A stretch of 64,000 bases of DNA from Acidobacteriota bacterium (GTDB lineage Bacteria; Acidobacteriota; Terriglobia; Bryobacterales; UBA6623): the NCBI GenBank assembly GCA_016125275.1, contig WGMB01000016.1, positions 1 to 64,000 of the forward strand. Reading direction: 5' to 3'. A program made the position numbers and the translations under genes. Positions within the stretch are counted from its first letter, which is position 1, and the number at the start of each line of letters is the position of its first letter. A model generated the notes under the pieces. It was given only the letters and a program-made list of their open reading frames with translations. It made no database searches and was not told the origin of the DNA. Shown in pieces: positions 1-20,526 of the stretch.

Positions 1-1
1 A

Positions 2-307
2 GCCTCCCTCGTGAACGCCGTCGCGGCCCTACCGCCGCAGCTCAGCCTCCCGGCGCTGGGCGAGATGCTCCACGTCCACGACACCGGCCGCCACGAAGCC
101 TGCAGCGTCTTCGCCTTGATCCTGAAAATCAGCCGCTCCCGCCCGAACGAAGTCCGCGAATACCTGACCCAAGCCCTCGACGAGGAAAGCATCCCGGGCT
201 ACTATGCCCAGCAACTGCTCGCCAAGATCGACAAGGCGCAGGAACGACAAGGCCCCGTACGCTTGGCCGAGCCGCTACTGCCGCCCGAGCGCGGCCCGCC
301 CGCCTGA
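2..307 (+). CDS. C-terminal part of an unrecognised protein (5' end outside window)
   Basis: The reading frame is open to the left edge of the window and ends at a TGA, so at least 101 residues of a longer protein are visible. The GTG at position 11 could be a start but has no ribosome site in view. The visible part is mostly helical-looking, with an Arg/Glu-rich middle (SRPNEVREYLTQALDEE) and a Pro-rich tail. I do not recognise a family. It is followed by a 111-bp gap and then the Fic gene on the same strand. It could also be a spurious frame; coding-like composition is the only support. Confidence 0.4.
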   Translation, partial: ASLVNAVAALPPQLSLPALGEMLHVHDTGRHEACSVFALILKISRSRPNEVREYLTQALDEESIPGYYAQQLLAKIDKAQERQGPVRLAEPLLPPERGPPA

Positions 308-418
308 ATGAGAATTCATGAAAGACTCTCCAAAAGATCGTTTTTCATCGACTGTTACCCAATATCATGCTAGGCTTCCCGGAATAGAGCGATTCATCTC
401 AGTCGATCGGTTTTCAGC

Positions 419-1984
419 ATGCGTTCATCAGCACCCCCGTTTTCAGGGCCCGTAACGGTCTTTCGAGATCTGCCGCTCCCTGAACCGGCTACTCCGGCGG
501 GCTACGCCGCTCTGATCGACGCTTATCGCCTCCAGGTTCCGTTGCCGCGCACCCTGTTCGGGACAGGCGAGCATCACCGCATCCGCGAAACCGGTGGCTG
601 GCGGCTGCTGACGCCGCGTCATGCGCCGCGGGCCACCTTGGAGGGCCACCTGACTTTCGCTTTGCGCTACGAAGGGCTCGACTTGGCGGTCCTCAAGCGC
701 CTTTTCGTCGCCACGGGGCCCGCCGCCATCGAGGCGCTCGTGAGGGCCCAGCCCACGGGCGGCTATGCCCGGCGCGTGTGGTTCCTCTACGAATGGCTAC
801 TGGGGGAGCGCCTCGGCCTCGATGGCGCCGCGCAGGGCGCCTATGTGCCCGTGGTGGACCCTGCCCTACAGTGGACCGGCGAGACCGAGCTCTCAAGCCG
901 CCACCGCGTGCGCAACAATCTTCCCGGGACGCCTGCGTTCTGCCCGCTGGCTTTCCGAACGAAGAAGCTCGAGGATTTTGCGGCGCTCGATCTGGCCGCA
1001 CGCGCTCGTCAGGCAATCTCAGCCGTTCCCCGCGACCTGTTGGCCCGGACCGCCGCCTTTCTGCTGCTCGAGGACTCCAAATCGAGCTACGCCATTGAGG
1101 GGGAGCGGCCGCCGCAAGACCGCATCCAGCGCTGGGGAAGGGCGATTGGCGAGGCCGGCCGCCATCCCATTTCGCTCGACGAGCTGTTGCGCCTGCAAGC
1201 GATCGTAATCGGAGACGCCCGCTTCGTGCGCCTCGGGTTGCGGGAAGCAGGCGGGTTCGTCGGCGAGCACGACCGCGAGACGGGTCTGCCGCTGCCAGTC
1301 CACATCAGCGCCCGACCTGAAGACCTGGCTTCGCTGATCGAAGGGATGGTCGCTTTCGATCGCGGGCAGGCGCCGCACCTCGATCCAGTGGTCGCAGCGG
1401 CGGCCTTGGCTTTCGGCTTCGTGAACATCCACCCGTTCGAGGATGGCAACGGGCGAATACATCGCTACTTGATTCACCACGTCCTGGCGCAACGGGGCTT
1501 CCACCCGTCCGGAGTCGTGTTTCCGGTGTCGGCCGCCATCCTGGAGCGGTTGGACGGGTACCGCGCAGCGCTCGAAGGCTACTCCAAGCGATTGCTGGAG
1601 GTGATCGAATGGCGTCCCACGCCTGATGGCAACGTCCAGGTTCTCAACGATACTGCCGACTTCTACCGCTATTTTGACGCGACCGCCTACGCCGAGCTCC
1701 TCTACGAGTGCGTGGAGAAGACGATCGAGGAGGATCTGCCCCGCGAAACGGATTTTCTGCGGCGCTACGACGGCTTTCGTGTTCAGGTCGAAGCCATTGC
1801 GGACATGCCGGCGCGCACGGTCGATCTGCTATTCCGTTTTCTTCGTCAGAATGGCGGCCGTCTCTCCCGCCGGGCCCGAGAACGCGAGTTCGAGAGACTC
1901 ACTGAGGAGGAGACGAGAAGGATCGAAGCGGCCTACGCGGAATCGTTCGACCTGCAAGACGAAGGCACGCAGACGGAGATCTGA
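419..1984 (+). CDS. Fic family protein (probable AMP transferase)
   Basis: This 521-residue protein carries the Fic core motif HPFEDGNGRIHR at residues 338-349. Its His is the catalytic base, and the following acidic and GNGR residues bind metal and the nucleotide phosphates in characterised Fic enzymes, which move AMP onto hydroxyl side chains of target proteins. Upstream, S223-x3-E227-G228 fits the inhibitory motif (S/T)xxxE(G/N) placed N-terminal to the Fic core, so the enzyme is probably autoinhibited (class II). The C-terminal 150 residues may include a winged helix, as in many chromosomal Fic proteins. The ATG at 419 has no strong ribosome site. No small antitoxin gene is adjacent, consistent with an internal inhibitory helix. 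The target is unknown. Fic genes are frequent in accessory islands, which fits the two integrases to the right. Confidence 0.88.
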   Translation: MRSSAPPFSGPVTVFRDLPLPEPATPAGYAALIDAYRLQVPLPRTLFGTGEHHRIRETGGWRLLTPRHAPRATLEGHLTFALRYEGLDLAVLKRLFVATGPAAIEALVRAQPTGGYARRVWFLYEWLLGERLGLDGAAQGAYVPVVDPALQWTGETELSSRHRVRNNLPGTPAFCPLAFRTKKLEDFAALDLAARARQAISAVPRDLLARTAAFLLLEDSKSSYAIEGERPPQDRIQRWGRAIGEAGRHPISLDELLRLQAIVIGDARFVRLGLREAGGFVGEHDRETGLPLPVHISARPEDLASLIEGMVAFDRGQAPHLDPVVAAAALAFGFVNIHPFEDGNGRIHRYLIHHVLAQRGFHPSGVVFPVSAAILERLDGYRAALEGYSKRLLEVIEWRPTPDGNVQVLNDTADFYRYFDATAYAELLYECVEKTIEEDLPRETDFLRRYDGFRVQVEAIADMPARTVDLLFRFLRQNGGRLSRRAREREFERLTEEETRRIEAAYAESFDLQDEGTQTEI

Positions 1985-2212
1985 GCCGGCGCCTGCCGCC
2001 CAGCCGGCCGGAATGCTACGGACTTCCGTGCCAACTGAAAGCGCGCCTTGGCCTTCTCGCTCGGTGGCAGGGATACGGCCCAGCCACACGGCGGTATGCG
2101 CCTGCTGACCTCGCTTGCAAAGCGCAACAAACCCGGTACAACATCTGCGGTCACACCCAAAGAAAAGGGACCGCTGGATGTTGCAGACTTCGCTCAAACC
2201 TTCGATGCGCCC

Positions 2213-2575
2213 ATGAGCGCCGAGCGATCCGCCCGAATCGCTACCCACAACGACCGCTTTCGCGCGGCCTGCGGTCTGCCCGTCGCTCCGCCCGTTCCTG
2301 GCCGCTACCTGATGACGTCCGGAGTCGCGGCCCTGAGTGTGCGGTTTCAGCTGGCGGCGCTGGCCAAGGTGCGCAGCTTCGACGTGTTCGACGAAGACAA
2401 CGATCCCTATGGCGAGCACGATTTTGGAGTCGTTGAGCTCGATGGCGTCCGCGACAAGCTGTTCTGGAAGATCGACTACTTTGCCGATGCCACGATGACC
2501 TACGGGGCCGAAGACCCCTCGGACGCCCAGTCCAGCTACCGCGTGCTGACCGTGCTGTTGGCCAACGAATACTGA
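2213..2575 (+). CDS. DUF3768 family protein
   Basis: The 120-residue product matches the DUF3768 pattern: an N-terminal IATHNDRFR helix, a TSGVAAL turn, then DNDPYGEHDFGVVELDG, FWKIDYF and a C-terminal RVLTVLLANEY. These small proteins of unknown function are common on plasmids and islands of proteobacteria. I recognise the family from motifs only. The frame is open further upstream, and starts at 2096 (ATG) or 2048 (TTG) would add 39 or 55 residues. I chose the ATG at 2213 because family members usually begin just before the IATHNDRFR helix, but none of the candidates has a clear ribosome site. The gene is followed within 50 bp by the 3' end of tRNA-Leu on the other strand. Confidence 0.75.
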   Translation: MSAERSARIATHNDRFRAACGLPVAPPVPGRYLMTSGVAALSVRFQLAALAKVRSFDVFDEDNDPYGEHDFGVVELDGVRDKLFWKIDYFADATMTYGAEDPSDAQSSYRVLTVLLANEY

Positions 2576-2620
2576 TCTGCGTTCCCAGCAAGAGCGCCAG
2601 TGCGGTGAGGCGTTTGGCCG

Positions 2621-2705
2621 TGGTGCGGGCGGCCGGACTTGAACCGGCACTCCACAAGGGAACGGCATTTTAAGTGCCGAGCGTCTACCATTCCGCCACG
2701 CCCGC
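2621..2705 (-). tRNA. tRNA-Leu (anticodon UAA)
   Basis: A class II tRNA can be folded on the minus strand. The acceptor is GCGGGCG pairing with CGCCCGC, the discriminator is A, and CCA is encoded. The anticodon stem CGGCA/TGCCG closes the loop CTTAAAA (anticodon UAA). There is a long variable arm of about 14 nt, and a T arm GCCGG/CCGGC with loop TTCAAGT. It reads the UUA codon and, by wobble, UUG. Its 5' end faces the palindrome and integrase to the right, so it is not in the usual orientation for 3'-end integration by that enzyme. Confidence 0.95.
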
Positions 2706-2807
2706 GCGACGCGGAGGGCATCATAGACTCGCCGGGCCGCGCTGCCAAGCGCTAATGCCGCGAGAGATGACCTGCAGTCGCCGGCTGGGTTCTGTCCGTC
2801 GTTTGCC

Positions 2808-2949
2808 CCTTGTCCGTTCTTGGTGGAACGTCTTCGGCGCAGGCGCGGGTTGAGTCAAGGCCGCGAGCCTGCGCAGGCAGGTCGAAGCGAAGCGCAGAGC
2901 CTTGACCCGGTCCGGGCCTGCGCCGACCATCCCCGCGCAACGGACAAGG
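2808..2949. repeat. 142-bp nested inverted-repeat element
   Basis: Three pairs of arms are nested around a small central palindrome. The outer arms are CCTTGTCCGTT (2808-2818) and AACGGACAAGG (2939-2949). The middle arms are TCGGCGCAGGC (2834-2844) and GCCTGCGCCGA (2916-2926). The inner arms are GTCAAGGC (2854-2861) and GCCTTGAC (2899-2906). All are perfect, and CCTGCGCAGG (2868-2877) lies inside. The bulges are unequal (15 and 12 nt, then 9 nt each), as in a folded RNA or a decayed palindromic transposable unit rather than a terminator. It sits in the 318-bp gap between tRNA-Leu and the 3' end of the integrase, and no protein-coding gene is visible in that gap. I do not recognise the family. 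Confidence 0.7.
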
Positions 2950-3023
2950 CGTGCGGGGCGAACGCTTTCGTTCGCCTGAGCGATCCAGGGCGGCGGGGCG
3001 CTTCCACGACGCCCACGCAGCCC

Positions 3024-4379
3024 TCACGAAGACCGAACCGCTTGGGCCCGTCGAGTCCCCAACGTCTTCGTCTTCCGCGCTGGACGCGGCTCATCTTCGG
3101 AACGGTCCGTGCGTCGCGATGGCCAGCGTTTGGGCTCCTTGGCCTTCTTAGCCCCTTTCGCCTTCGCGGTCCGGGGCCTGCGGACGTTGATCGCCGCCGC
3201 ATCGAGCATGTTCTTGATGTGGGAGGCGTAGAACTTCTCGATCATCTCGACACTGGTGCGGCAGTTCTTGGCGATCTGGTAGATGTCGGCGCCCTCCATC
3301 AGCCGCATGCAGATATAGGTGTGGCGGAGGCTATACGGCGTCCGGCGATTGCCGTCGCGGTCGTACTTGAGCCCTTCCTCTTCGAGGATGTTGTTGAACA
3401 GCTCGCGGTGGTGCAAAGGAAACAGCCGGTCGGTCGGCTGCGGCTTGTTGCGTTCGAGGAGACGCCGGAATGGAGTGACGGCGCCCGGCATGCTTTTGCA
3501 GTAGCCGAAGCCGCGCTTTCCCCGCACCTCGATGTGCAGGATCGTCTCATCCGTGGATTCCTCCTCGACGACCTGCACGTCGCGGTACTCGAGCCGAGCG
3601 GATTCGTCCGGACGAAGCCCGGTGTTGGCCATGAACAGCACGTAGTCGTGCAGTTGCTCGCACGACCACTTGTACCGTTTCCGCTTCGGATTCTGCGCCC
3701 TGCGGCGCGTGGCCTTGTACAACTGCTTGTACTCCTCCGGAGAGAACCACGGACGGGGCTTGACCTTGTCGGATTGCTTGAACGGAGGCGAGAGGTCAGG
3801 GACGCTGCGGAGCCACTCGTGGCGCTCGGCCGTCTTGAGCACCTGCCGGAGCGTCACAATCTCATGATGCATCGTGCTGAACGAGGGAGGCGTAGCCTTC
3901 TCCGGGTCCTGCCCGGGCCGAGGAACCGGATTCTCGTGCCGGTGGATGCGGTACTCCTGGACCAGACCGGCGTTGATTTCCGCAAGCAGCCTCTCGCCGA
4001 AGAACGGCAGGAGGTGACGGTCGAGAATGGTCTCGAGACGTGTCACCCAGCGCGGGTGGCGCTGGCCTTGTGTGATGACTTCGTACTCGCGAAGGAACTG
4101 TTTGGCCGCCTCCTTGAACCTCTTGCCGTGCTTGAGATGCCCGGCGCGGTGCTTGCCGCGCAGGTCGAGGTACCAGTCTTCGGCAAACTCCTTGGCGCGC
4201 GTCAGGACTTCCTCTTTGGTGCTGGTGCGGTGGTTCCTGCGGTCGAGGTAGGTCGAGGCTTGCCAGTATTTGCTGTCATCCCGCTTGTAGATGTGAAGCC
4301 TGCCGTCGAAGAGCGCGTGCTTGAGCATTCGGTCGATCCAATGTAAATCCGTGTAAGAGTTGTGTAAGCCTAAACACAC
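3024..4379 (-). CDS. tyrosine-type site-specific integrase
   Basis: The 451-residue product has the layout of phage and island integrases: an N-terminal DNA-binding part, an alpha-helical core-binding domain (about 85-190) and a C-terminal catalytic domain (about 210-395). The catalytic pieces seen are R256 in NTGLRPDESARL, R352 in SLRHTY and the nucleophile Y384 in EKFYASH. The usual His before R352 is Tyr (position 349), and the LGH box is replaced by NCRTS, so the box II/III residues are non-canonical, although such variants are common in this subgroup. The last 55 residues are Lys/Arg-rich. The GTG at 4379 is preceded by AGGAAAA; an ATG at 4328 is an alternative start. The gene points towards tRNA-Leu but lies on its 5' side. 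Confidence 0.9.
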   Translation of the reverse strand: MCLGLHNSYTDLHWIDRMLKHALFDGRLHIYKRDDSKYWQASTYLDRRNHRTSTKEEVLTRAKEFAEDWYLDLRGKHRAGHLKHGKRFKEAAKQFLREYEVITQGQRHPRWVTRLETILDRHLLPFFGERLLAEINAGLVQEYRIHRHENPVPRPGQDPEKATPPSFSTMHHEIVTLRQVLKTAERHEWLRSVPDLSPPFKQSDKVKPRPWFSPEEYKQLYKATRRRAQNPKRKRYKWSCEQLHDYVLFMANTGLRPDESARLEYRDVQVVEEESTDETILHIEVRGKRGFGYCKSMPGAVTPFRRLLERNKPQPTDRLFPLHHRELFNNILEEEGLKYDRDGNRRTPYSLRHTYICMRLMEGADIYQIAKNCRTSVEMIEKFYASHIKNMLDAAAINVRRPRTAKAKGAKKAKEPKRWPSRRTDRSEDEPRPARKTKTLGTRRAQAVRSS

Positions 4380-4621
4380 ACTTTTCCTGAGTCAAGACCG
4401 CACTTATCCTATTGATATGCTTGGATACTTTGGCCCGTCGCCAGATGAAGTGAGAAGATTTTAAGTCTGCAGCGGGTCATCCTAACGTCCTGAAATACCG
4501 GAGTAAAAGGCCTCTGTCAAGAGCGGCTGTGTGAGAGACCGTGTAAGAACCGCGGCCGTTTCTCGGCTCATGATGCCTGGAAGAAAACGTATGCCTGCGT
4601 ATTCCGCCGCGCCAAATTAGG

Positions 4622-4810
4622 TCAGGGCCATAGATCGGGCAGCGCAGACAGCCGCACGGAGACCAGCGGAGGAATCGGCGCTTCCGCGCCCTGGCGGATC
4701 TCGAGGATACCGAGAACGAGAAAGCTGACGAACAGCGCTGCTGCCAGCTTGCCTCCATGCTCCCAGACGCCAATCACCAGGAACAGCACCGCAATAGCGA
4801 TCAGCAACAC
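4622..4810 (-). CDS. small two-helix membrane protein, unknown function
   Basis: A GTG preceded by GGGAGG at 6-nt spacing opens a 62-codon frame. The product has two hydrophobic stretches (about residues 2-17 and 21-38) joined by the short loop EHGGK, then a polar tail ending in LPDLWP. The good ribosome site and the two-helix pattern are the only evidence; no family is recognised. A longer version starting at 4948 exists but has no ribosome site and a weak N-terminus. It lies alone in gene-poor DNA upstream of the integrase, so it could be part of the mobile element or a decayed remnant. Confidence 0.4.
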   Translation of the reverse strand: MLLIAIAVLFLVIGVWEHGGKLAAALFVSFLVLGILEIRQGAEAPIPPLVSVRLSALPDLWP

Positions 4811-5827
4811 CGTGCACCTCCCGCTGAAGGCCGCCTCGCCGAGCGAAACAGCCAGACAAGGCTCCAGCAGCAACACGCCGCTGGACGGTGACGTAACACC
4901 GGCCTGCGGCAAAGCAACGCGACTGAGTTGTGTGCTGACGACGGTCACTGGACGACAAGGCCCGGGTTCGACTCTGGGCCAGACAGAGCACGCTCGGTTC
5001 TTAGGGATGAAGCTAGAAGGCGATGAGTCCCCCGATTGGTCCCGTCAAGACCAGCGGCGGAGACGCACGGCTCCCAGAGAGCGGTCGTCCCGGCGTCAGC
5101 CGGGGATTCTGTCCTGGTAGGGCCGTCGGAGGAGTCGGCGGTAAACAGCAATGGGCAGGAACGCGACAACACGATCTGCGGTTGACAATCCGGCACAAAT
5201 GGCAGTCTAATACGACGGTCGAACGGAAAGCCGCAAACCAAGGAAGTGATATCGGCAGGCTTTCGAACGCAGGCCACTTGAAAGCAGCATTTTCTCGGGA
5301 CAGAAAGCCCCAACCCGTGCCCACCAGGGAACTAGGAAGCGAGCCGGTATCCGATTATTTGATCCTTGTCGATCACCAGACAGACGTGCGATTTTCCACT
5401 GACGTTCAGCGACGAATCGCGCCCGACCTCGGGACGCCAAACCGGGTCTCTTGGTCAAGTCCGCTCGATGATCGCCGTGGATCACACTCCTTACGGTGGA
5501 GACCTATCTCACGTGGCGCAATAATGGAAATACTCAGCAACTCTACCCGTTCAGCCATCACTTTAACTCTAACTTCACACGGCACCAATCGGCCCCTAAT
5601 CGAGATCAGCACGACCTCGGTGGCCAGCTCCGGCGACAATTCTGAAGACGTTGCAGCCTTACACACAAAGTCGTTCAGGGCCTCGTCCAGAGCGGACCTA
5701 GACAGCGGAATCTACTCACATTGCAGCACAAATCCTGACGACTCGACGAGCCCGAGGAGTTTTCCTTGCATCTCCGGCGTGAATATCTACACCTCCGACC
5801 TACTCTTCCCGAGAACCCGATCTGGCT
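4811..5827. other. gene-poor stretch upstream of the cas genes
   Basis: No convincing complete gene is visible here. Composition is less GC-rich than the flanks. On the minus strand a frame from 5771 to 5406 has coding-like composition but is broken by an in-frame TAG about 20 codons after its first ATG, so it may be a pseudogene; only its distal 86 codons (5406-5666) stay open. The long + strand frame covering 5023-5958 lacks any domain or signal and runs into the repeat-like hairpins, so I do not call it. A promoter-like pair lies at 5182-5211. A tRNA-T-arm-like stretch near 4950-4972 does not fold well. Confidence 0.45.
5182..5211 (+). promoter_or_regulatory. sigma-70-like promoter without an obvious gene
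   Basis: A perfect -35 hexamer TTGACA (5182-5187) is followed after 18 bp by TCTAAT (5206-5211, four of six matches to TATAAT, with TAAT overlapping). It points towards the cas operon 850 bp away, with no clear gene in between. It could drive a long leader, a small RNA or a lost gene. The housekeeping consensus of this phylum is not certain. Confidence 0.35.
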
Positions 5828-5961
5828 GTCGCGGCTGTCAGCCGCGACGGCCCGTCAATGGGGCCGCGATCCGAGGATCGGGAAGGATCGGCAATGGAGC
5901 CGTAGACCAAGCGTGCTCGCCAGCACTTCAATGGGGCCAAGCGCCAACGCTCCGGTGATGC
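5828..5961 (-). repeat. degenerate CRISPR-repeat-like pair in opposite orientation upstream of csb1
   Basis: Two stretches resemble the array repeat read on the minus strand. In the first, TCAATGGGGCC (5855-5865) is followed by a different but intact hairpin CGATCC-GA-GGATCG (5867-5880) and then GGGAAG, so the repeat's conserved ends flank a stem whose two arms have changed together. In the second, CTTCAATGGGGCC (5926-5938) is followed by a short AGCG/CGCT hairpin (5940-5951). The hairpin centres are 72 bp apart, the same period as the main array. A weaker GCAATGGAGCC (5891-5901) lies halfway, and a 9-bp hairpin GTCGCGGCT/AGCCGCGAC (5828-5848) lies further left. Motif identity and period are seen directly; origin and function are inference. 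Confidence 0.5.
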
Positions 5962-6060
5962 CGCATCTCTCGCGAGCGGTTGCGGCGGTGGCGGCAAATG
6001 AGCGAACTCGGCACCAACGAACGAAAGTGCAACGATAGCCGTAACGGAGGAGGAACTGAA

Positions 6061-7293
6061 GTGTCCAGACCCATCTCGTTAGACGACTTGAGCTCCGCGG
6101 TCGGCGGCACAGCCGCCGCCTTCCGCTGCCGTCGGCGACTCCAACCTGGAGGCGGGGAGGGCGACAAAGTCTTTCCCCCGACCTTTGCCGGGGCCGTCTA
6201 TGCCGTCGAGCAGCGTCGCGTTCCAGGGCGCGGCGAGCCCGTGACTTGCGTGTTGCTGGATAGCGTCCAGAGTCAAGCCAATCGCATGGAGTTCGCCCTC
6301 CAGGACGCCGTCGATGGCGGCCGCATCCAGTTGCCGCTCGTCGAGGTGGATTTCAGCGACCACGACCCCACCGGGGATGTCGCCGCTGACATCGCGGCCG
6401 GGCGACTGATTGACGCAGTTGGTAAAGTCACCAGTTTGCAGGTACCACACCGCCTCGCCGATGCCATCCTGCGCGACAGCGAGCTTGGCGGGAGCCCATT
6501 CCGTCAATCCGACAAAGGCAAAGCGCTCAACACTGTCAGCCTGGGCCAAGCAACTCCGCTGCTAGAGCTCTGCCCCACCGCCTTAGTTTTCGGCATGTGG
6601 GATTCGACCGGCCCCAAAGGCGGCCTAGGCGCGAAGTTTGAGCGGGCGATGGTTTCGGAGGTGGTTGGCATCGGCGCGGCCGTCCACGACAGCCACCGCG
6701 CGCGAGGCGTCCGGCGCGATCCTCTTGAGGTCAGGAAGGGCGTCTCCATAACTAAGGCGGCTGATAAGTCCTGGGCGCTAGCGGACGCAAAGACAAAAGG
6801 GGCGGTTAGACCGTCGGAGATCAATCACGGCAGCGTCCCCTTCGATACTGAGAACGCGGGCGTGACCATTGAATACGCCGAGCAAACCACAACCCTTTCT
6901 TTAATCTGCTTGCGCCGGCTACACTTCCCACTCGGCGGCAAGACCACTCCGGAGGCCAACGAGGCCGCGCGCACCTTGTTGGCCGCACTGGGGCTCTGTG
7001 CGGCGACGCTCGCCTTTGAATCCGGCATGGGTTTGCGTTCGCGTTGCCTGCTATGGCCCGAAGCTCCGATGGAGTGGGAGCTACTGGAGCGGCCCGGGCA
7101 GGAGCCGACGCGGTTCAGATTGACTGGTGAGGAAGCGACCGCGCTGCTTCAGCAGGCGGCGGACTCGGCTCGCGCGGCGGGACTGCCCTGGCCGACCGAA
7201 CCACTCACGCTCCAGCCGTCGGCGAATCTGCTGGAGCTAGTACGCCGCAGCCAGCAGCTCGCGACCCAGGAAGAGTCCGGCGAAGGGAGCTAG
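6061..7293 (+). CDS. csb1: type I-G Cascade backbone protein Cas7 (Csb1, GSU0053 family)
   Basis: This is the predicted Cas7 subunit that polymerises along the crRNA in the type I-G interference complex. The 410-residue product starts with the family's typical N-terminus, ISLDDLSSAV, then RRRLQP, a Gly-rich turn and DKVFPPTFAGAVYA. The frame is open to a TTG at 5980, but the GTG at 6061 has a GGAGGAGG ribosome site just upstream and restores the family N-terminus, so I start there. A Gly-rich FGMWDSTGPKGG segment near residue 180 and SITKAADKSWA fit the RAMP-like fold of the family. It is the first gene of the cas operon, and its stop is 2 nt before the csb2 start, indicating translational coupling. 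No transcriptional regulator gene is adjacent. Confidence 0.92.
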   Translation: MSRPISLDDLSSAVGGTAAAFRCRRRLQPGGGEGDKVFPPTFAGAVYAVEQRRVPGRGEPVTCVLLDSVQSQANRMEFALQDAVDGGRIQLPLVEVDFSDHDPTGDVAADIAAGRLIDAVGKVTSLQVPHRLADAILRDSELGGSPFRQSDKGKALNTVSLGQATPLLELCPTALVFGMWDSTGPKGGLGAKFERAMVSEVVGIGAAVHDSHRARGVRRDPLEVRKGVSITKAADKSWALADAKTKGAVRPSEINHGSVPFDTENAGVTIEYAEQTTTLSLICLRRLHFPLGGKTTPEANEAARTLLAALGLCAATLAFESGMGLRSRCLLWPEAPMEWELLERPGQEPTRFRLTGEEATALLQQAADSARAAGLPWPTEPLTLQPSANLLELVRRSQQLATQEESGEGS

Positions 7294-7295
7294 CC

Positions 7296-8858
7296 GTGCT
7301 CGCTTTGGCGATTCGGTACCTGAACGGCTTCGTCGCCGCGGCGCGTCCCGATGATCGCGACCGGCCCGAATGGCCGCCGCATCCAGCGCGAGTGTTCATG
7401 GCCCTGGCGGCGGCGCATTTTGAGTCCGGGGGCAACCTGGAAGAGCGGGAAGCGCTGCTTTGGCTAGAGGGCTTGGAGGCAGGCGAGACGCCGTTCGCGC
7501 CCGCCATCGTAGCTTCGGGCTGCTCGGAGCGCGCCGTCATGACGCACTACGTACCAGTCAATGACAGCTCCGGCCCGTCGAAGGCTCTTCTCCAGACCGC
7601 CCCTGTGGCGCGCGACCGCCAACCCCGCACGTTCGCTCGGGCGTGGCTCGAAGAGGACACGGTCTACCTAGTCTGGCGCGCCGCCGAGCCCCCGGAACCC
7701 GTGCGGAGGGGGCTCAATGCGCTCTGCGCCAAAGTAACACGCATCGGCCATTCTTCCTCCCTGGTGCAGATGTGGCTGGCCGACGCAGCCGAAGTCGGGC
7801 CGCCCACCTGGGAACCGGTGGAAGACCGCGTGGAGATCAGCCTGCGCATCGCCCCGCCCGGAACGCTGGCGTACCTCGAACAACGATTCGGAGCAGCAGG
7901 CGTCGATCGCTATTCGGCGTTGACTGTGGCAGAAAGCGACGAGCCCAGCCCCAAGCAGCGACGAGCAGCCAGGGAGGCGCTGAAGGCAGAGTTTCCCTTG
8001 GGAGCCCCGACTCCGTTGCGGCCCGACCTCTCCGTCTACCAGGGCTATGCCCGCCCAGGCGACGCAGATGTCGCCGTCGCCCGCGGCTCGGTTTTCTCGC
8101 CGCACCTGGCCGTGCTGCGTCTGCATCCCCGACAAAGCCGCTATCGAGCTCTGGATCTATCGGCAACCCTCCAACTGACTCAGCGTTGGCGCGACTCTGC
8201 GCTCAGCTTCAGCAACGATCTGTCAGCCGAAGCGCGCAGCGTCCTGTCCGGGCACGACCAGTCGGGAGATCCGCTCCGCGCTCCGCATCTGGCCCTCGCT
8301 CCACTCGCGTTCGTCGGCCGGGAGCACGCCGATGGCCACCTGTTGGGTGTAGGCGTCGCCCTGCCCGAGGACCTGGACACGGCGACCCGCCGTCAGGTGA
8401 TGCAGGCCTTCGGCCGCGTAGCCGAGCTGAAGCTAGGGCCGTTGGGCGTATGGCAAGTCGAAGCGCTCCACGACTCGTTTCCACCGATCAATCTGCACGC
8501 GCCAACCTGGACAGCCTATCCCGCCGGAGCGACGCAATGGGCGACCGTCACGCCGATTGCGTTCGACAGACACCCCAAGGCGGCAAACCGGGCCGAGCTC
8601 CTCGTCGAAGTGAGCGCGATGGTTCGCCGCGCCTGTGAGCGCATTGAGCTACCGGAGCCTCGCGAAGTGATTCTTACTCCGGTATCTCCGCACCTGGGAG
8701 CGCCGGCTGCGCACGAGTTTCCCAGAATGCGTCGCAAGGACGGCAGCCTGAGGCGGCATACGCACGCCATTCTGGTTTTCGACGAACCGGTGCGAGGCCC
8801 GCTGTTGTTGGGCGCGGGCCGCTATCGTGGGTACGGGTTCTGCCGGCCCCTGGACTAA
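7296..8858 (+). CDS. csb2: type I-G Cas5-Cas6 fusion (Csb2, GSU0054 family)
   Basis: The 520-residue product matches the Csb2 family, thought to combine the Cas5 role (capping the 5' handle of the crRNA) with the Cas6 role (cutting the repeat transcript). The N-terminus LAIRYLNGFVAAARPDD with PPHPARVFMALAAAHFE is typical, and the C-terminus holds the Gly-rich RAMP loop LLGAGRYRGYGFCRP. The array repeat has a stable hairpin, a suitable substrate for such an endonuclease. The start is a GTG 2 nt after the csb1 stop; the stop is 22 nt before the cas3 ATG. I cannot assign the catalytic His with confidence from sequence alone. Confidence 0.9.
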   Translation: MLALAIRYLNGFVAAARPDDRDRPEWPPHPARVFMALAAAHFESGGNLEEREALLWLEGLEAGETPFAPAIVASGCSERAVMTHYVPVNDSSGPSKALLQTAPVARDRQPRTFARAWLEEDTVYLVWRAAEPPEPVRRGLNALCAKVTRIGHSSSLVQMWLADAAEVGPPTWEPVEDRVEISLRIAPPGTLAYLEQRFGAAGVDRYSALTVAESDEPSPKQRRAAREALKAEFPLGAPTPLRPDLSVYQGYARPGDADVAVARGSVFSPHLAVLRLHPRQSRYRALDLSATLQLTQRWRDSALSFSNDLSAEARSVLSGHDQSGDPLRAPHLALAPLAFVGREHADGHLLGVGVALPEDLDTATRRQVMQAFGRVAELKLGPLGVWQVEALHDSFPPINLHAPTWTAYPAGATQWATVTPIAFDRHPKAANRAELLVEVSAMVRRACERIELPEPREVILTPVSPHLGAPAAHEFPRMRRKDGSLRRHTHAILVFDEPVRGPLLLGAGRYRGYGFCRPLD

Positions 8859-8880
8859 GCAAGGCGATCAGGGGCGGACG

Positions 8881-13268
<4,388 letters not shown>

Positions 13269-13282
13269 AGGAGGATTCCGCC

Positions 13283-15055
13283 ATGGGCGCCCAGCCGTTG
13301 GAGATCGACGACAGTCCGCGCCGCGAGCTGCCCGACTACCTCTCGGCGCGCAAGATCAACGAGTTCGTCTATTGCCCCCGGCTGTTCTACTTCGAGCAGG
13401 TCGAGGGCGTCTTCGTGCACAACGAGCACACCGTCGAAGGCGCCGTGCAACACAAGCGCGTCGATCAGGAAGACGGCTCCGCGCCCAAGCCCGAAGCCAT
13501 CGACGAGGAGCCTATCGTCGTCCGCTCCATCATGCTCTCTTCCGAAGAGCATCGCGTGATCGCCAAGCTCGACCTGGCGGAGTTCGCGCAAGGTCACGCC
13601 ACGCCCGTCGACTACAAGCACGGCCGCCCACAGGCGACGGACGAAGGACCGACGGCTTGGCCCGCTGACCGCGCCCAGATGACCGTCCAGGCGCTGGTTT
13701 TGCGAGCAAACGGCTACCGCTGCGAAGAGGGCGTCGTTTTCTACCAGAAGACCCGCCAGCGGGTTCGAATCGTCTTTGACGCCGCCGCCATCGCGGAGGC
13801 CGAGCAAGCCATTGCCGACGCTTGGGCGACGGCGGCCGCCAGCCAGATCCCGCCGCCGCTCGTCGACTCCCCCAAGTGCCCAGGCTGCTCGCTGGTCGGG
13901 ATCTGCCTGCCGGACGAGACGCGACGGGCGCAAGCGGAGGAAGCGCCTGCCATGCAGCAGCTCGGTCTGTTCGAACGAGCGATTCCGCGCAAGCCGCCCG
14001 TCCGCGAGACCCGTCTGTTGGTTGCGCCGCGCGCCGATCTGCGCCCGCTCTATGTCAATACCCACGGGCTCTCGGTCGGCAAGTCCGGCGGTGTGCTGCG
14101 GATCAAGGATCGCGAAAAGAAGACCGTCCAGGACGTACGGATCAACGAGATCTGCCAGGTCAACCTGATGGGCAACGTCCAGATCAGCACGCAAGCCGTC
14201 CAGGAGCTGTGCCAGAGCGAGAAACCGATCTGCTACTTCTCGCAAGGCGGCTGGTTCTACGGCGTCGCCACGGGGCTCAACACCAAGAATGTCTTCCTGC
14301 GGCGGGCGCAGTTCCGGCTGGCCGAACAGCCTTGGTTCTGTCGCCGTCTGGCCGGGAAGCTCGTCGCCGGCAAGATCCGCAACCAACGCACGATGCTGTT
14401 GCGCAACCACATCGAGCCGCCACGGACCGAGCTGCGCGAGCTCAAACAGCTCATCGAGCGCGCCGAAACGGCGGCGTCACTCGAAGAGCTGCTGGGGATC
14501 GAGGGCCGAGCGGCGCGGGTGTACTTCGGCCTGTTCGCCGGCATGCTCAAGCGCGATGACGATTGGGACGGGGAGACGCCCTTGCGTTTCGATTTTCAGA
14601 AGCGCAACCGGAGGCCGCCGCGCGATCCCGTCAACGCGCTGCTTTCGCTGGCCTACAGCCTGTTGGCGAAGGATCTGACAGTGGCCTGCTATGCGGTGGG
14701 CTTCGACCCGATGATGGGCTTTTATCACCAGCCGCGGCACGGCAGGCCGGCGCTGGCGTTGGACCTCATGGAGCCGCTGCGGCCGTTGATCGCGGATTCG
14801 GCGGTGCTGAGCGCCGTGAACACCCGCATGGTGACGGAGAGGGACTTCGTCACGGCGGGAGAGGCGACGTCGTTGACCGCGGCGGGTCGGAAGGGCTTCT
14901 TTCGGGCTTACGAGCTGCGGATGGATACGCTGGTGACGCACCCGCTGTTCGACTATCGGGTCAGCTATCGACGGCTGCTCGAGATCCAGGCGCGGTTGCT
15001 GGCGAAGACTCTGGAAGGCGAGCTGGGGGAGTATCCGGTATTCGTGACGCGGTAG
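13283..15055 (+). CDS. cas4-cas1: Cas4-Cas1 fusion, CRISPR spacer acquisition integrase
   Basis: The 590-residue protein joins a Cas4 exonuclease-like domain (about 1-225) to a full Cas1 (about 245-590), a fusion characteristic of type I-G. The Cas4 part has the four iron-sulfur cysteines C31, C199, C202 and C208 and RecB-nuclease residues D97 and D110-x-K112. The Cas1 part has the metal-binding set E407 (GIEGRA), H482 (GFYHQP) and D494/E497 (DLMEP), all intact. Cas4 trims prespacers and helps select PAM-adjacent DNA; Cas1 inserts them at the leader end. AAGGAGG lies 10 nt before the ATG. The gene ends 183 bp before the first repeat, so acquisition genes and leader are adjacent. Everything needed for adaptation appears functional. 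Confidence 0.96.
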   Translation: MGAQPLEIDDSPRRELPDYLSARKINEFVYCPRLFYFEQVEGVFVHNEHTVEGAVQHKRVDQEDGSAPKPEAIDEEPIVVRSIMLSSEEHRVIAKLDLAEFAQGHATPVDYKHGRPQATDEGPTAWPADRAQMTVQALVLRANGYRCEEGVVFYQKTRQRVRIVFDAAAIAEAEQAIADAWATAAASQIPPPLVDSPKCPGCSLVGICLPDETRRAQAEEAPAMQQLGLFERAIPRKPPVRETRLLVAPRADLRPLYVNTHGLSVGKSGGVLRIKDREKKTVQDVRINEICQVNLMGNVQISTQAVQELCQSEKPICYFSQGGWFYGVATGLNTKNVFLRRAQFRLAEQPWFCRRLAGKLVAGKIRNQRTMLLRNHIEPPRTELRELKQLIERAETAASLEELLGIEGRAARVYFGLFAGMLKRDDDWDGETPLRFDFQKRNRRPPRDPVNALLSLAYSLLAKDLTVACYAVGFDPMMGFYHQPRHGRPALALDLMEPLRPLIADSAVLSAVNTRMVTERDFVTAGEATSLTAAGRKGFFRAYELRMDTLVTHPLFDYRVSYRRLLEIQARLLAKTLEGELGEYPVFVTR

Positions 15056-15238
15056 GGGTCGCGAGCGGCGAGGCGATGGCGAAATCCCGGGGACCGCTCG
15101 CAAGCGGTCAAATCGCTTAGAATCATGGAGTTCGCGAAGGGCTTGGCGGCGACGGAGCCTGCGAAAGAGCGGTACGAGCCGAGGCGCTCGCAAACCGGCC
15201 CGCAGATCCTTGAAAATAGAAGAGTTCGATTGACAGCT
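15056..15238 (+). promoter_or_regulatory. CRISPR leader
   Basis: This 183-bp non-coding stretch lies between cas4-cas1 and the first repeat. Its last 30 bp, including TTGAAAATAGAAGAG, are AT-richer than the surroundings, as usual for leaders. Two facts place the leader here. The degenerate repeat is at the opposite end of the array, and the ATTGAAGC end of the repeat, which becomes the crRNA 5' handle in type I systems, reads left to right. The exact promoter is not evident; TTGAAA and TTGACA hexamers occur close to the first repeat. Confidence 0.6.
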
Positions 15239-18200
15239 ACTTCCCCGGCTGAGAAGCCGGGGCCCCATTGAAGCACCGAGGCCTGCGCCGCTTCCGCCGT
15301 TCCAGGCTTCACTTCCCCGGCTGAGAAGCCGGGGCCCCATTGAAGCTTACGCTTCTCGGAGTTCCCACGGGGCCAGAGCCTAACTTCCCCGGCTGAGAAG
15401 CCGGGGCCCCATTGAAGCACGGCGATCCTGTCAAGAGTGATCGAATTGGATCGCACTTCCCCGGCTGAGAAGCCGGGGCCCCATTGAAGCTAGATTTCTT
15501 ATGGATTGTGAGCGTACTCGCTCTAAACTTCCCCGGCTGAGAAGCCGGGGCCCCATTGAAGCCCAGTTCTCTCCCAGCACTTCGTCCATAGTTGGCAACT
15601 TCCCCGGCTGAGAAGCCGGGGCCCCATTGAAGCTGCGTCAATTCGACCCCGCACAGCACGCAGTTCGTCTACTTCCCCGGCTGAGAAGCCGGGGCCCCAT
15701 TGAAGCCCAGGCGACCCTTGCGAATGACGCCGAGGCGGTCGACTTCCCCGGCTGAGAAGCCGGGGCCCCATTGAAGCCGTTGCTTGTATGCCACCTTTCC
15801 GTTTCTCCTTGTACTTCCCCGGCTGAGAAGCCGGGGCCCCATTGAAGCTTCTCTCCCGGCGGAGCGGGCTTCGGAACTGCTCAACTTCCCCGGCTGAGAA
15901 GCCGGGGCCCCATTGAAGCCACCAGCCAATCCTCAGTAATCACGTCGCCTTCCAACACTTCCCCGGCTGAGAAGCCGGGGCCCCATTGAAGCCTTAGAAC
16001 CCGGAGATTGAGCACGATTGGTTGGGCACTTCCCCGGCTGAGAAGCCGGGGCCCCATTGAAGCCATTTGTACCTCGTGAATGCGATTCGATTGCTGTCAC
16101 TTCCCCGGCTGAGAAGCCGGGGCCCCATTGAAGCCCTCACCCGCGGGCTCAAGGTCGCGCAGGTCCTGGAGACTTCCCCGGCTGAGAAGCCGGGGCCCCA
16201 TTGAAGCCTGCTGCTGGCGCAGATTTTCCGGGGCGGCGTCACCACTTCCCCGGCTGAGAAGCCGGGGCCCCATTGAAGCCACGCCAGGCCGTAGTCCTGA
16301 TACGGGCCGGTCGAAGACTTCCCCGGCTGAGAAGCCGGGGCCCCATTGAAGCCCGAGAGCCTGATACATCTCTCGGAAACTCTCCTCAACTTCCCCGGCT
16401 GAGAAGCCGGGGCCCCATTGAAGCGTTCTCCTCGGCGCTGTCGTCTTGCTGCGCCTTCACACTTCCCCGGCTGAGAAGCCGGGGCCCCATTGAAGCAAGC
16501 ACATCTGGCTGCTGATCCTGGAGTTTCGCTCGACTTCCCCGGCTGAGAAGCCGGGGCCCCATTGAAGCGCCCGCCCTATGGATGTTCCGAAGGTCCCTAC
16601 TTCACTTCCCCGGCTGAGAAGCCGGGGCCCCATTGAAGCGGTGAACAGGCGACAGGCCTGCTCATCATCGGCCTCACTTCCCCGGCTGAGAAGCCGGGGC
16701 CCCATTGAAGCAGCGTTTTCGGGATCTGCGCCTGATGCTCCAATATCACTTCCCCGGCTGAGAAGCCGGGGCCCCATTGAAGCACGCTCTCCGGCCGCGG
16801 CGGCTGCCAATACACCTGCACTTCCCCGGCTGAGAAGCCGGGGCCCCATTGAAGCGCGTGGCAGAACGCCGCGGTGATGCGCTACTTCCCACTTCCCCGG
16901 CTGAGAAGCCGGGGCCCCATTGAAGCTCGGCCCGCGCGAAGCTGGTGAGCCCGTCCATGACCACTTCCCCGGCTGAGAAGCCGGGGCCCCATTGAAGCAA
17001 TTGCAACCGGCCGCTCGCGACTGAGGTTATCAGCACTTCCCCGGCTGAGAAGCCGGGGCCCCATTGAAGCGCCTCCAGTGTCGCCGCGATCTTGCTCTGT
17101 CGATCCGCACTTCCCCGGCTGAGAAGCCGGGGCCCCATTGAAGCCGGGCTCTCCCGTTCCCTCTTGCGGGCTCTCCCGTTACTTCCCCGGCTGAGAAGCC
17201 GGGGCCCCATTGAAGCAGGGCGATCAAGTAGTCGAGCCGCATTTCCTTGGGCTACTTCCCCGGCTGAGAAGCCGGGGCCCCATTGAAGCGATAGCGCCGG
17301 TTTGCGACCAGCGTTGCGCGACTTGACTTCCCCGGCTGAGAAGCCGGGGCCCCATTGAAGCGACGACCTCGCCGGCATCGCCGAGATTGCCGGTCAGACT
17401 TCCCCGGCTGAGAAGCCGGGGCCCCATTGAAGCGAGTTCGGAGATCGCTGGTCGGCGACGAATGATGGACTTCCCCGGCTGAGAAGCCGGGGCCCCATTG
17501 AAGCGGGGTTTCGAGGGTAGCGATGCACTCGCCAAGGCCGACTTCCCCGGCTGAGAAGCCGGGGCCCCATTGAAGCACGCCGAGGTCGGTGAGCCCTTCG
17601 ATCGCGGCCTTACTTCCCCGGCTGAGAAGCCGGGGCCCCATTGAAGCGCCAGGGCCTGGCACCCGTCGCCCCAGCTCGCCGCACTTCCCCGGCTGAGAAG
17701 CCGGGGCCCCATTGAAGCGTGCCCTGCACCCCGTCCACCGTGTCGGCGTCGATACTTCCCCGGCTGAGAAGCCGGGGCCCCATTGAAGCAGCGCTCATAG
17801 GCGGCCAGGTACGGCCGCAGCGCCGGCACTTCCCCGGCTGAGAAGCCGGGGCCCCATTGAAGCAGGTTTCCGGCCGTTTTGTTGAACTCTTCAACCGAGA
17901 CTTCCCCGGCTGAGAAGCCGGGGCCCCATTGAAGCCGGCAAGCCGCCGTCCCGCGTTGCCGCCGAAAGGATCATCACTTCCCCGGCTGAGAAGCCGGGGC
18001 CCCATTGAAGCGCCCCGAATGGTGAAGTGGTCGAACTTCCGCCCTCGACACTTCCCCGGCTGAGAAGCCGGGGCCCCATTGAAGCGATTCGCACTATGAA
18101 ATCGAGGTTACCGTCCGAATCGGCTAACTTCCCCGGCTGAGAAGCCGGGGCCCCATTGAAGCTTGTCGAGCCCCTTGATGACCTCCTGGGTTCTCTTACT

Positions 18201-20526
18201 TCCCCGGCTGAGAAGCCGGGGCCCCATTGAAGCCAGTCCTTGCGAAGTCTCGACCGTATCAGGATCGCCACTTCCCCGGCTGAGAAGCCGGGGCCCCATT
18301 GAAGCCGAATCCCGAAGAACTCCGCGAACCGGTTCGCCCGCTCACTTCCCCGGCTGAGAAGCCGGGGCCCCATTGAAGCACCACACAGCGCGTGCTGCAC
18401 GCAAGGAACGTGTGCACTTCCCCGGCTGAGAAGCCGGGGCCCCATTGAAGCCCGACGAAGGCCCGCACGTGGTCCGCATCGGCGGGACTTCCCCGGCTGA
18501 GAAGCCGGGGCCCCATTGAAGCCGGCCTGCCCGATCGCCGAGTTCGGCTCCTGCATCACTTCCCCGGCTGAGAAGCCGGGGCCCCATTGAAGCCCCTCGG
18601 TTTCGGCGTCGATGTCAAATACGAGCTGACTTCCCCGGCTGAGAAGCCGGGGCCCCATTGAAGCCTGTCGATCAAGCCCATCCCCCCACGTGCTCTACTA
18701 CTTCCCCGGCTGAGAAGCCGGGGCCCCATTGAAGCCCGAGTGTTTTCGATGTTTTCGATGGAATGAATGTACTTCCCCGGCTGAGAAGCCGGGGCCCCAT
18801 CGAAGCGATCCGAATGAGCGGCTCTTCGTCGCAATCCCGCCACTTCCCCGGCTGAGAAGCCGGGGCCCCATTGAAGCCACACAGGCGCTGAACCTGTGGT
18901 TTTGAAGCCATGACTTCCCCGGCTGAGAAGCCGGGGCCCCATTGAAGCAAAGCCACAGTCATCCATGCCCCAAATACTCACGCGACTTCCCCGGCTGAGA
19001 AGCCGGGGCCCCATTGAAGCAACGGCTTCCTGCGTCTCGTCGGCGGCCTGCTCGACACTTCCCCGGCTGAGAAGCCGGGGCCCCATTGAAGCCGACCGCC
19101 GGTCCAAGATCAAGTCGGCGCTGGCGGACACTTCCCCGGCTGAGAAGCCGGGGCCCCATTGAAGCACGGCGGATGAGTCGTCCGCCAATGTCGGGGCGTC
19201 ACTTCCCCGGCTGAGAAGCCGGGGCCCCATTGAAGCCACCTAAATCTTGAAGGAATTGATCGTAAAGTGCGCACTTCCCCGGCTGAGAAGCCGGGGCCCC
19301 ATTGAAGCATGGTTTTCGCCGGCTATTCGTTTGCTCATGAGGCAACTTCCCCGGCTGAGAAGCCGGGGCCCCATTGAAGCTCCTGCGACATCATCGGCGT
19401 CGAGGTCGTGGCGGAACTTCCCCGGCTGAGAAGCCGGGGCCCCATTGAAGCATGAATTTTGGCGGCCGGTATTCGCGGAGCACCACAACTTCCCCGGCTG
19501 AGAAGCCGGGGCCCCATTGAAGCGCCTCGGCCCAGAGCAAGGCGTCGAAGCAGTCGACACTTCCCCGGCTGAGAAGCCGGGGCCCCATTGAAGCAGCGAA
19601 CGTGTGGAGCGCATCGAGGGAGCCACCTGACTTCCCCGGCTGAGAAGCCGGGGCCCCATTGAAGCCGGTATGTCCACAGTGCGCGGAGCGATCCGGACCG
19701 CACTTCCCCGGCTGAGAAGCCGGGGCCCCATTGAAGCTAGATGACCCGATCGAAGCTGAGATCAAGCGCCTCACTTCCCCGGCTGAGAAGCCGGGGCCCC
19801 ATTGAAGCGCTTAGATTCGTGCCGCCAAGCTCGGCAGACTTACCCACTTCCCCGGCTGAGAAGCCGGGGCCCCATTGAAGCTTGCCGATGGCCGCCGCCA
19901 GCGCCAGTCCGAACACACTTCCCCGGCTGAGAAGCCGGGGCCCCATTGAAGCGTCGCCGGCGAAGAGACTCGACGCGCTCAACTTGCACTTCCCCGGCTG
20001 AGAAGCCGGGGCCCCATTGAAGCGGGCTTGCCGAGGGTCATGCCGGCCACCGAAGCCGTACTTCCCCGGCTGAGAAGCCGGGGCCCCATTGAAGCTTCGA
20101 GCTCGCGGACCTCGTTGCGGGTCATGAGGCCACTTCCCCGGCTGAGAAGCCGGGGCCCCATTGAAGCGCGCTGGATTCTCTGCATGCAACCGTGGATGAA
20201 GCCACTTCCCCGGCTGAGAAGCCGGGGCCCCATTGAAGCGAGGTCCATGAGGTCAAAGGCTACTGGGAGGACGACACTTCCCCGGCTGAGAAGCCGGGGC
20301 CCCATTGAAGCGCTCCCGACGGGAAGATGCTGCCGTCCGGCAATTCACTTCCCCGGCTGAGAAGCCGGGGCCCCATTGAAGCGCGGTCGTCGAGTTCCCG
20401 GTGGACGTCACGCTGGTCACTTCCCCGGCTGAGAAGCCGGGGCCCCATTGAAGCCATAGCCCTCGCCGGTCACGGGGTCTTGCTGGCGCCACTTCCCCGG
20501 CTGAGAAGCCGGGGCCCCATTCGAGA
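15239..20526 (+). CRISPR. type I-G CRISPR array, 74 repeats and 73 spacers
   Basis: A 36-nt repeat recurs every 71-77 bp without interruption. It consists of ACTT, stem arm CCCCGGCT, tetraloop GAGA, stem arm AGCCGGGG and tail CCCCATTGAAGC, giving a perfect 8-bp hairpin followed by the 8-nt handle ATTGAAGC. Spacers are 35-41 nt, mostly 35-37; the longest ones cluster around 17.9-18.1 kb. All repeats appear identical except number 50 (18771-18806), where T31 is C, and the last (20491-20526), whose final six bases read TCGAGA. The decayed last repeat marks the trailer end, so the newest spacers are near 15.3 kb. Short frames with repeated SRGS- or AGEV-type peptides inside are array translations, not genes. 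Confidence 0.99.

Follow-up and report, generated by a model that had tools for sequence, protein, structure and literature searches.

Two copies of a short CRISPR repeat motif stand just upstream of a cas operon, outside the CRISPR array, in a stretch of 64,000 nucleotides from an Acidobacteriota bacterium (contig WGMB01000016.1, positions 1 to 64,000; this whole stretch is referred to as the window). They raise the question of whether this locus encodes a small guide RNA that regulates its own cas genes, or whether one is looking at the debris of an array or a mere resemblance. An RNA of the first sort, CreR, is reportedly a cas-regulating crRNA-like RNA (it is said to have been described by Liu et al. 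in Cell Host Microbe in 2023). As argued below, we think it quite likely that positions 5852-5960 of the minus strand make up a CreA/CreR-kind gene for a crRNA-like guide (psiR1 - psiS - psiR2), which is part of the adjacent type I-G system and at present lacks a recognisable target.

The host locus

The host system is a type I-G CRISPR-Cas system, with csb1, csb2, cas3g and a cas4-cas1 fusion all giving NCBIfam matches above the cut-off. The operon and its array are laid out as follows:

6061 to 7293, plus strand: csb1 (cas7g), the first cas gene (TIGR02570)
7296 to 8858, plus strand: csb2 (cas5-cas6 fusion), the presumed processing enzyme (TIGR02165)
8881 to 12975, plus strand: cas3g, with a Cas3-extension domain fused at the C-terminus of the ORF (TIGR02621, NF049934)
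12978 to 13268, plus strand: cas2
13283 to 15055, plus strand: cas4-cas1 fusion (NF049935)
15239 to 20526, plus strand: CRISPR array with 74 repeat cores, repeat ACTTCCCCGGCTGAGAAGCCGGGGCCCCATTGAAGC

The commonest period of the array is 72 bp, and its spacers are mostly 35-37 nt long. A model of Csx17/Cas8g found no match in any of the five window cas proteins scanned. According to passages of PMC9638904, type I-G is the least well understood type I subtype, its PAM is TTN, and its Csb2 cuts 4 nt 3′ of the hairpin, yielding an 8-nt handle. On the other side of csb1, about 1.7 kb of sparse sequence separates it from a tyrosine-recombinase-like ORF (3024-4379; weak phage integrase match, below cut-off) that is oriented away from it; a Fic-domain protein (419-1984) and a DUF3768 protein (2048-2575) are also encoded in the window, and a 147-bp tandem repeat of 2.8 copies is present at 61907-62324.

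Anatomy of the unit

Situated on the strand opposite to csb1, about 100-210 bp before that gene, the unit runs in minus-strand order from psiR1 (5960-5925) through psiS (5924-5888) to psiR2 (5887-5852), followed by a 9-bp hairpin (5848-5828):

5925 to 5960, minus strand: psiR1, a degenerate repeat in which GGCCCCATTGAAG and the 8-nt handle, ATTGAAGT, are retained; its hairpin is weak
5888 to 5924, minus strand: psiS, a 37-nt spacer-like stretch without a recognised target
5892 to 5901, minus strand: a further partial repeat end, the third, within the spacer: GGCTCCATTG
5852 to 5887, minus strand: psiR2, a degenerate repeat with a one-bulge hairpin followed by GGCCCCATTGACGG; handle lost
5828 to 5848, no strand assigned: perfect hairpin of 9 bp that immediately follows psiR2 in minus-strand direction, without a T run; a possible end structure

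Much of this had been foreseen in the original prediction, which was made from the sequence alone. It placed the motif at 5855 and 5928, and TCAATGGGGCC does start at both positions; it set the hairpin centres one array period apart, and the loop centres, counted from the sequence, fall at 5873.5 and 5945.5, i.e., 72 bp apart. The handle that it gave for the second copy was also correct (ATTGAAGT, identical to ATTGAAGC at 7 of 8 positions), as was the proposal of a minus-strand crRNA-like unit with a spacer of about 37 nt, since 37 nt at 5888-5924, a crRNA length, are flanked by a degenerate repeat on each side. Three of its statements were right in part. The copies were described as an oppositely oriented pair, which is true only of their orientation relative to the array at 15239-20526; with respect to each other they are direct repeats. 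Each copy was credited with its own hairpin, and the fold of 5852-5887 is indeed almost in register with that of the array repeat (7 pairs, one bulge and a tetraloop), whereas the hairpin of 5925-5960 is weak (-6.8 kcal/mol). Lastly, the arms of the first copy do differ from those of the array repeat and still pair, but this need not reflect compensatory changes in place as had been suggested, because the arms equal the second-repeat stem of a relative, locus L047 (TTCCGCGATC..GATCGCGG), less one base. The one-bulge hairpin of psiR2 is followed by ATTGACGG, and its energy is not beyond that of shuffles.

The degenerate repeats thus sit outside the array and beside the cas genes, the first keeping the 8-nt 5′ handle and the second a processing element (here a hairpin) without the handle, with a crRNA-length spacer between them, as in a CreA/CreR guide gene. 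Two divergent repeats are common in creA (passages of PMC8501985), and in haloarchaea the degeneration of the first creA repeat spares the handle nucleotides, whereas the second repeat largely loses the handle (passages of PMC9458426). The window unit shows this same sorting, psiR1 keeping the handle and psiR2 the hairpin.

The unit and chance

In the 64 kb searched, GGCCCCATTGA (the complement of TCAATGGGGCC) occurs outside the array only at 5865 and 5938, both on the minus strand. About 0.03 occurrences would be expected outside the array, and the two exact 11-mers are 73 bp apart, one array period. For the third, partial copy, GGCTCCATTG at 5892-5901 on the minus strand, the expectation is 0.0025, a figure reckoned after the fact. 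A further GGCCCCATTGAAG elsewhere in the genome (C14:1207641) is inside an ORF, has no partner and was put down to chance.

In favour of a chance resemblance, the repeats as a whole look like background by two measures. In ungapped comparison over 36 nt, the better copy is identical to the array repeat at 20 of 36 positions, within the window background (best outside the array, 23/36), and the folds of the two repeat copies are no better than shuffles (176 and 40 of 200 as good, against 0 of 200 for the array repeat). The fold of the whole unit is likewise not beyond shuffles (z -1.17; 26/200 as good). Because whole-repeat identity and folding are at background, the case rests on the 3′ end of the repeat (11-13 nt) and on the spacing.

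A covariance model was built from 20 related elements, with the window left out. Its only match in window positions 1-15200 is 5849-5939 on the minus strand (45.5 bits, E 2.2e-10), and a search of the genome, in which 150 of 5479 first-look candidates were scored, gave 74 matches, comprising 73 array units and the window unit. This confirms, at the level of sequence, the significance of the 3′ end and spacing with a model blind to the window; it already contradicts chance, which we regard as highly improbable. Ordinary array units in other loci are matched by the model as well, so that it certifies a repeat-spacer-repeat unit and not a regulator. Rfam gave no match up to E 1 in 4400-6300, and a scan for promoters of the sigma-70 type found none on the minus strand of that region.

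Guide units in related type I-G loci

The original prediction called for a comparison with related type I-G loci, and the architecture recurs among them. We sampled 65 csb1-bearing loci and the window, 66 in all, and searched from -2000 to +50 of csb1 for a C[AG]TTGAAG handle, a kept handle therefore being a condition of the search; in several loci less than 2 kb is available upstream of csb1, so that absence of the unit there means little. A target was defined as a TTN-flanked match no more than 700 bp away with at least 9/10 matches at seed positions 1-5 and 7-11. There are 34 handles in 29 of the 66 loci, and 17 of them, in 17 loci, have such a target nearby, against a mean of 0.22 and a maximum of 2 with shuffled spacers (200 runs). 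Positions 13-17, which played no part in the selection, match at 4.44 of 5 in the 17 guide-target pairs, against 1.37. The other 17 handles, the window's included, are without a target, and several of these are far from csb1 and may be chance. Hosts of the 17 members belong to the Acidobacteriota, Planctomycetota, Verrucomicrobiota, Chloroflexota and Pseudomonadota (L033 aside).

Mismatches were profiled over 22 pairs, five of them from loci outside the 66; as the pairs had been selected by seed match, positions 6 and 12-24 alone give independent evidence. Over positions 1-18, mismatches concentrate at 6, 12 and 18 (15, 16 and 15 of 22 pairs), while positions 13 to 17 are mismatched in 2 or 3 pairs each and positions 19-24 in 11 to 19. 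A mismatch at every sixth base, as seen in these pairs, is a known pattern of Cascade.

Of 18 elements from relatives, 15 have a second-repeat hairpin that begins 36-42 nt past the start of the spacer (at 57 nt in L049; there is none in L036 and L037), and in L044 and L059 the tail of this hairpin is a T run, terminator-like. In seven psiR2 picked for equal 8-4-8 geometry out of 14 relatives, all 8 stem pairs hold in every row, 4 of them changed on both sides. The psiR1 stem is weaker than -8 kcal/mol in 9 of the 18 elements and stronger in the rest, so its loss is not a rule. In L036 and L037, which are sister loci, a change at position 15 of the guide recurs in the target (the seed of L036 matches at 8/10). 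Orientation is opposite to csb1 in 16 of 20 elements tabulated by hand (the 17 members plus L003, L008 and L036).

In six relatives (L030, L033, L037, L044, L078 and L036), the site matched by the guide is on the minus strand, 9-157 bp before the csb1 match start, which on sequence grounds would be a CreR-like arrangement. In L073 (Plasticicumulans lactativorans DSM 25287) the unit stands at -265 relative to csb1 and its predicted site at -729.

Seven additional loci (L003, L008, L004, L009, L019, L119 and L127) stand outside the count of 17/66; the scan of additional loci covered 41, with matches in 6. Poor handles were the reason for setting aside L042, L062, L067, L086 and L113, as well as L040 and others from a scan that tolerated 2 handle mismatches; L007 and L012 were left out as repeats of L030 and L077, and L072 since CTT precedes its match (14/15 positions). 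A second related guide unit (GGCCCAATTGAAGT, spacer ATGGATGTTCC...) was seen in two Dehalococcoidia loci, at +6929 relative to csb1 in L070, where it has an exact seed target with TTC, and at -167 in L072, where its site matches at 14/15 after CTT.

In a csb1 tree the window groups with eight loci (support 96/87). These eight nearest loci are without the unit: the covariance model gives array units or nothing in them, and motif scans of the upstream regions agree (832 bp upstream in L025).

Search for a target of the window guide

A check put forward with the original prediction was whether the pseudo-spacer is complementary to the csb1 promoter. The surroundings of csb1 were searched, with and without a PAM, for matches to the psiR1 spacer (three registers), to the sequence continuing from psiR2 and to the one that follows the middle motif. 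From -700 to +100 of csb1 there is no TTN site with at least 7/10 seed matches to the psiR1 spacer; its best TTN sites within 2.5 kb of csb1 reach 8/10, at +1062 and -733, and the psiR2 continuation reaches 7/10 at -66. In 5000-6400 no match to the window spacer exceeds 60 shuffles. One site is left:

6000 to 6016, minus strand: possible remains of a target in the csb1 promoter, a weak candidate that matches at 12/15 counted positions, register shifted by one, without a TTN PAM

On one reading, that of the original prediction, the guide could be a working regulator in cis, which would repress csb1 now through imperfect promoter pairing. The unit's position before csb1 would suit this, as would the six relatives whose targets all lie on the minus strand close before csb1, and 6000-6016 shares their place and strand; 35 of 3000 shuffled spacers do as well. 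However, besides its shifted register and missing PAM, this site is mismatched at positions 3 and 11 (numbered in the shifted register), and in H. hubeiense any change among the ten seed positions abolished repression (passages of PMC8501985); since one seed change suffices there, the 6000-6016 site should not work. The complementarity is below the standard that the relatives meet, and with no TTN-flanked site nearby, present repression of csb1 by this copy seems unlikely to us. As its sequence stands, the window copy should not be a csb1 repressor, guide and target having perhaps drifted apart or the guide having been redirected to a site not recognised here.

Alternatively, the guide could work in trans, its target being at another genomic location or on a mobile element, as a CreA-like guide or a one-unit defence array. 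The kept handle and hairpin would agree with this, and the genome holds three exact TTN-seed sites for the window spacer. All three, however, are inside ORFs and match at just 15 to 19 of 36 positions, two further sites (at most 2 mismatches in a longer pattern) each break the seed twice, and the spacer has no match in phages and plasmids. We give a guide in trans no better prospects than one acting on csb1.

Lacking a target would also be natural for a fossil, i.e., all that is left of an ordinary type I-G array, reversed or older, that was never a regulator. Period and repeat length equal those of the array, and a third partial repeat end lies within the spacer. Against this, the full copies number only two, their decay is sorted (handle in one, hairpin in the other) as in the target-bearing relatives, and the psiR2 stem is like the psiR2 of L047 and unlike the present array. 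A fossil array accounts less well for the sorting of the decay and for the resemblance to relatives that have a target, and we judge it improbable, if anything a little more so than the two working guides.

The preferred reading thus remains a CreA/CreR-kind guide gene beside the type I-G operon, as the original prediction had it with regard to anatomy, with the model match and the relatives' shared architecture in its favour. For the window guide, no site with a PAM and seed pairing was found at a cas or toxin promoter, and as this defining target was sought and not found, we name the unit CreR-like and not CreR. Given that no target was found and that the eight csb1-nearest loci are without the unit, the guide gene has probably decayed or been redirected.

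A proposal for how the window copy would act, or once acted, can be put as follows. The minus strand of 5852-5960 would be transcribed, Csb2 would cut psiR1 to leave the 8-nt handle, with the psiR2 hairpin held as the 3′ end, and the guide RNA would load the type I-G Cascade. Ancestrally, about 15 base pairs formed by spacer positions 1-5, 7-11 and 13-17 at a TTN-flanked cas-promoter site would have blocked transcription, the DNA not being destroyed.

Comparison with known systems

In the literature searched (titles, abstracts and passages), we found no report of CreR or CreTA in type I-G and nothing on guide-based regulation of type I-G, although the original CreR tables may hold more subtypes. 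Passages of a review (PMC13131331) place CreR in types I-B, I-E and V-A, and those of PMC12737573 in Type I and V-A. The type I-G guide family would be a further variant of the CreA/CreR kind. As with CreR, the window element is a stand-alone crRNA-like unit beside a cas operon and the relatives' guides pair partially with a cas promoter; it differs in being of type I-G, outside the three types named in those passages of PMC13131331, and in having no recognised target. With the CreA of CreTA, as portrayed in passages of PMC8501985 and PMC9458426, it shares two divergent degenerate repeats of which the first keeps the handle, and its relatives share the seed at 1-5 and 7-11 plus the PAM; in contrast, pairing in the relatives extends to about position 17, and the psiR2 hairpin is strong where haloarchaeal repeats have none. 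The ordinary array at 15239-20526 has the same 36-nt repeat geometry, 72-bp period and ATTGAAG handle. In contrast to the array, the window unit stands outside it in opposite orientation, its repeats are unlike each other and unlike the array's, and its spacer matches no phage or plasmid.

Sites upstream of sigma-like ORFs and a joint reading

In three further relatives (L031, L043 and L055), the guide's site precedes, by about 80-105 bp, an ORF located upstream of csb1 with matches to sigma-70 region 4, above the Pfam cut-off in L043 and L055 and just below it in L031; start codons of these ORFs were chosen by ribosome-site pattern.

We lean, somewhat cautiously, towards a joint reading in which CreR-type guides accompany type I-G systems of at least five bacterial phyla and pair over about 15 bases, skipping every sixth position, with a TTN-flanked site at the cas operon promoter. 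The sigma-70-like ORF that comes first past the target in some loci would make this a two-step circuit, Cascade and guide repressing the sigma factor that serves the cas genes, and the window would be a member with an eroded target match, a natural loss-of-regulation state that shows the remains of such a regulator after target loss. The comparison of loci yields a testable rule, namely a C[AG]TTGAAG handle, a spacer and a TTN-flanked match at 1-5, 7-11 and 13-17, which finds guide and target in 17/66 loci. If confirmed, RNA-guided self-control of cas genes would reach a Cascade in which no Cas5 subunit holds the handle (passages of PMC9638904), possibly with a sigma-factor step.

The ORF past the target in L079 was rejected as a sigma factor, since Pfam gave no match for it and it could not be aligned with the ORF of L055. 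Between guide target and csb1 in L008 (1194-1424) there is a 77-aa ORF (MRDLIIAYDLV...), likewise without a Pfam match, which by eye recalls small Cas2-like proteins.
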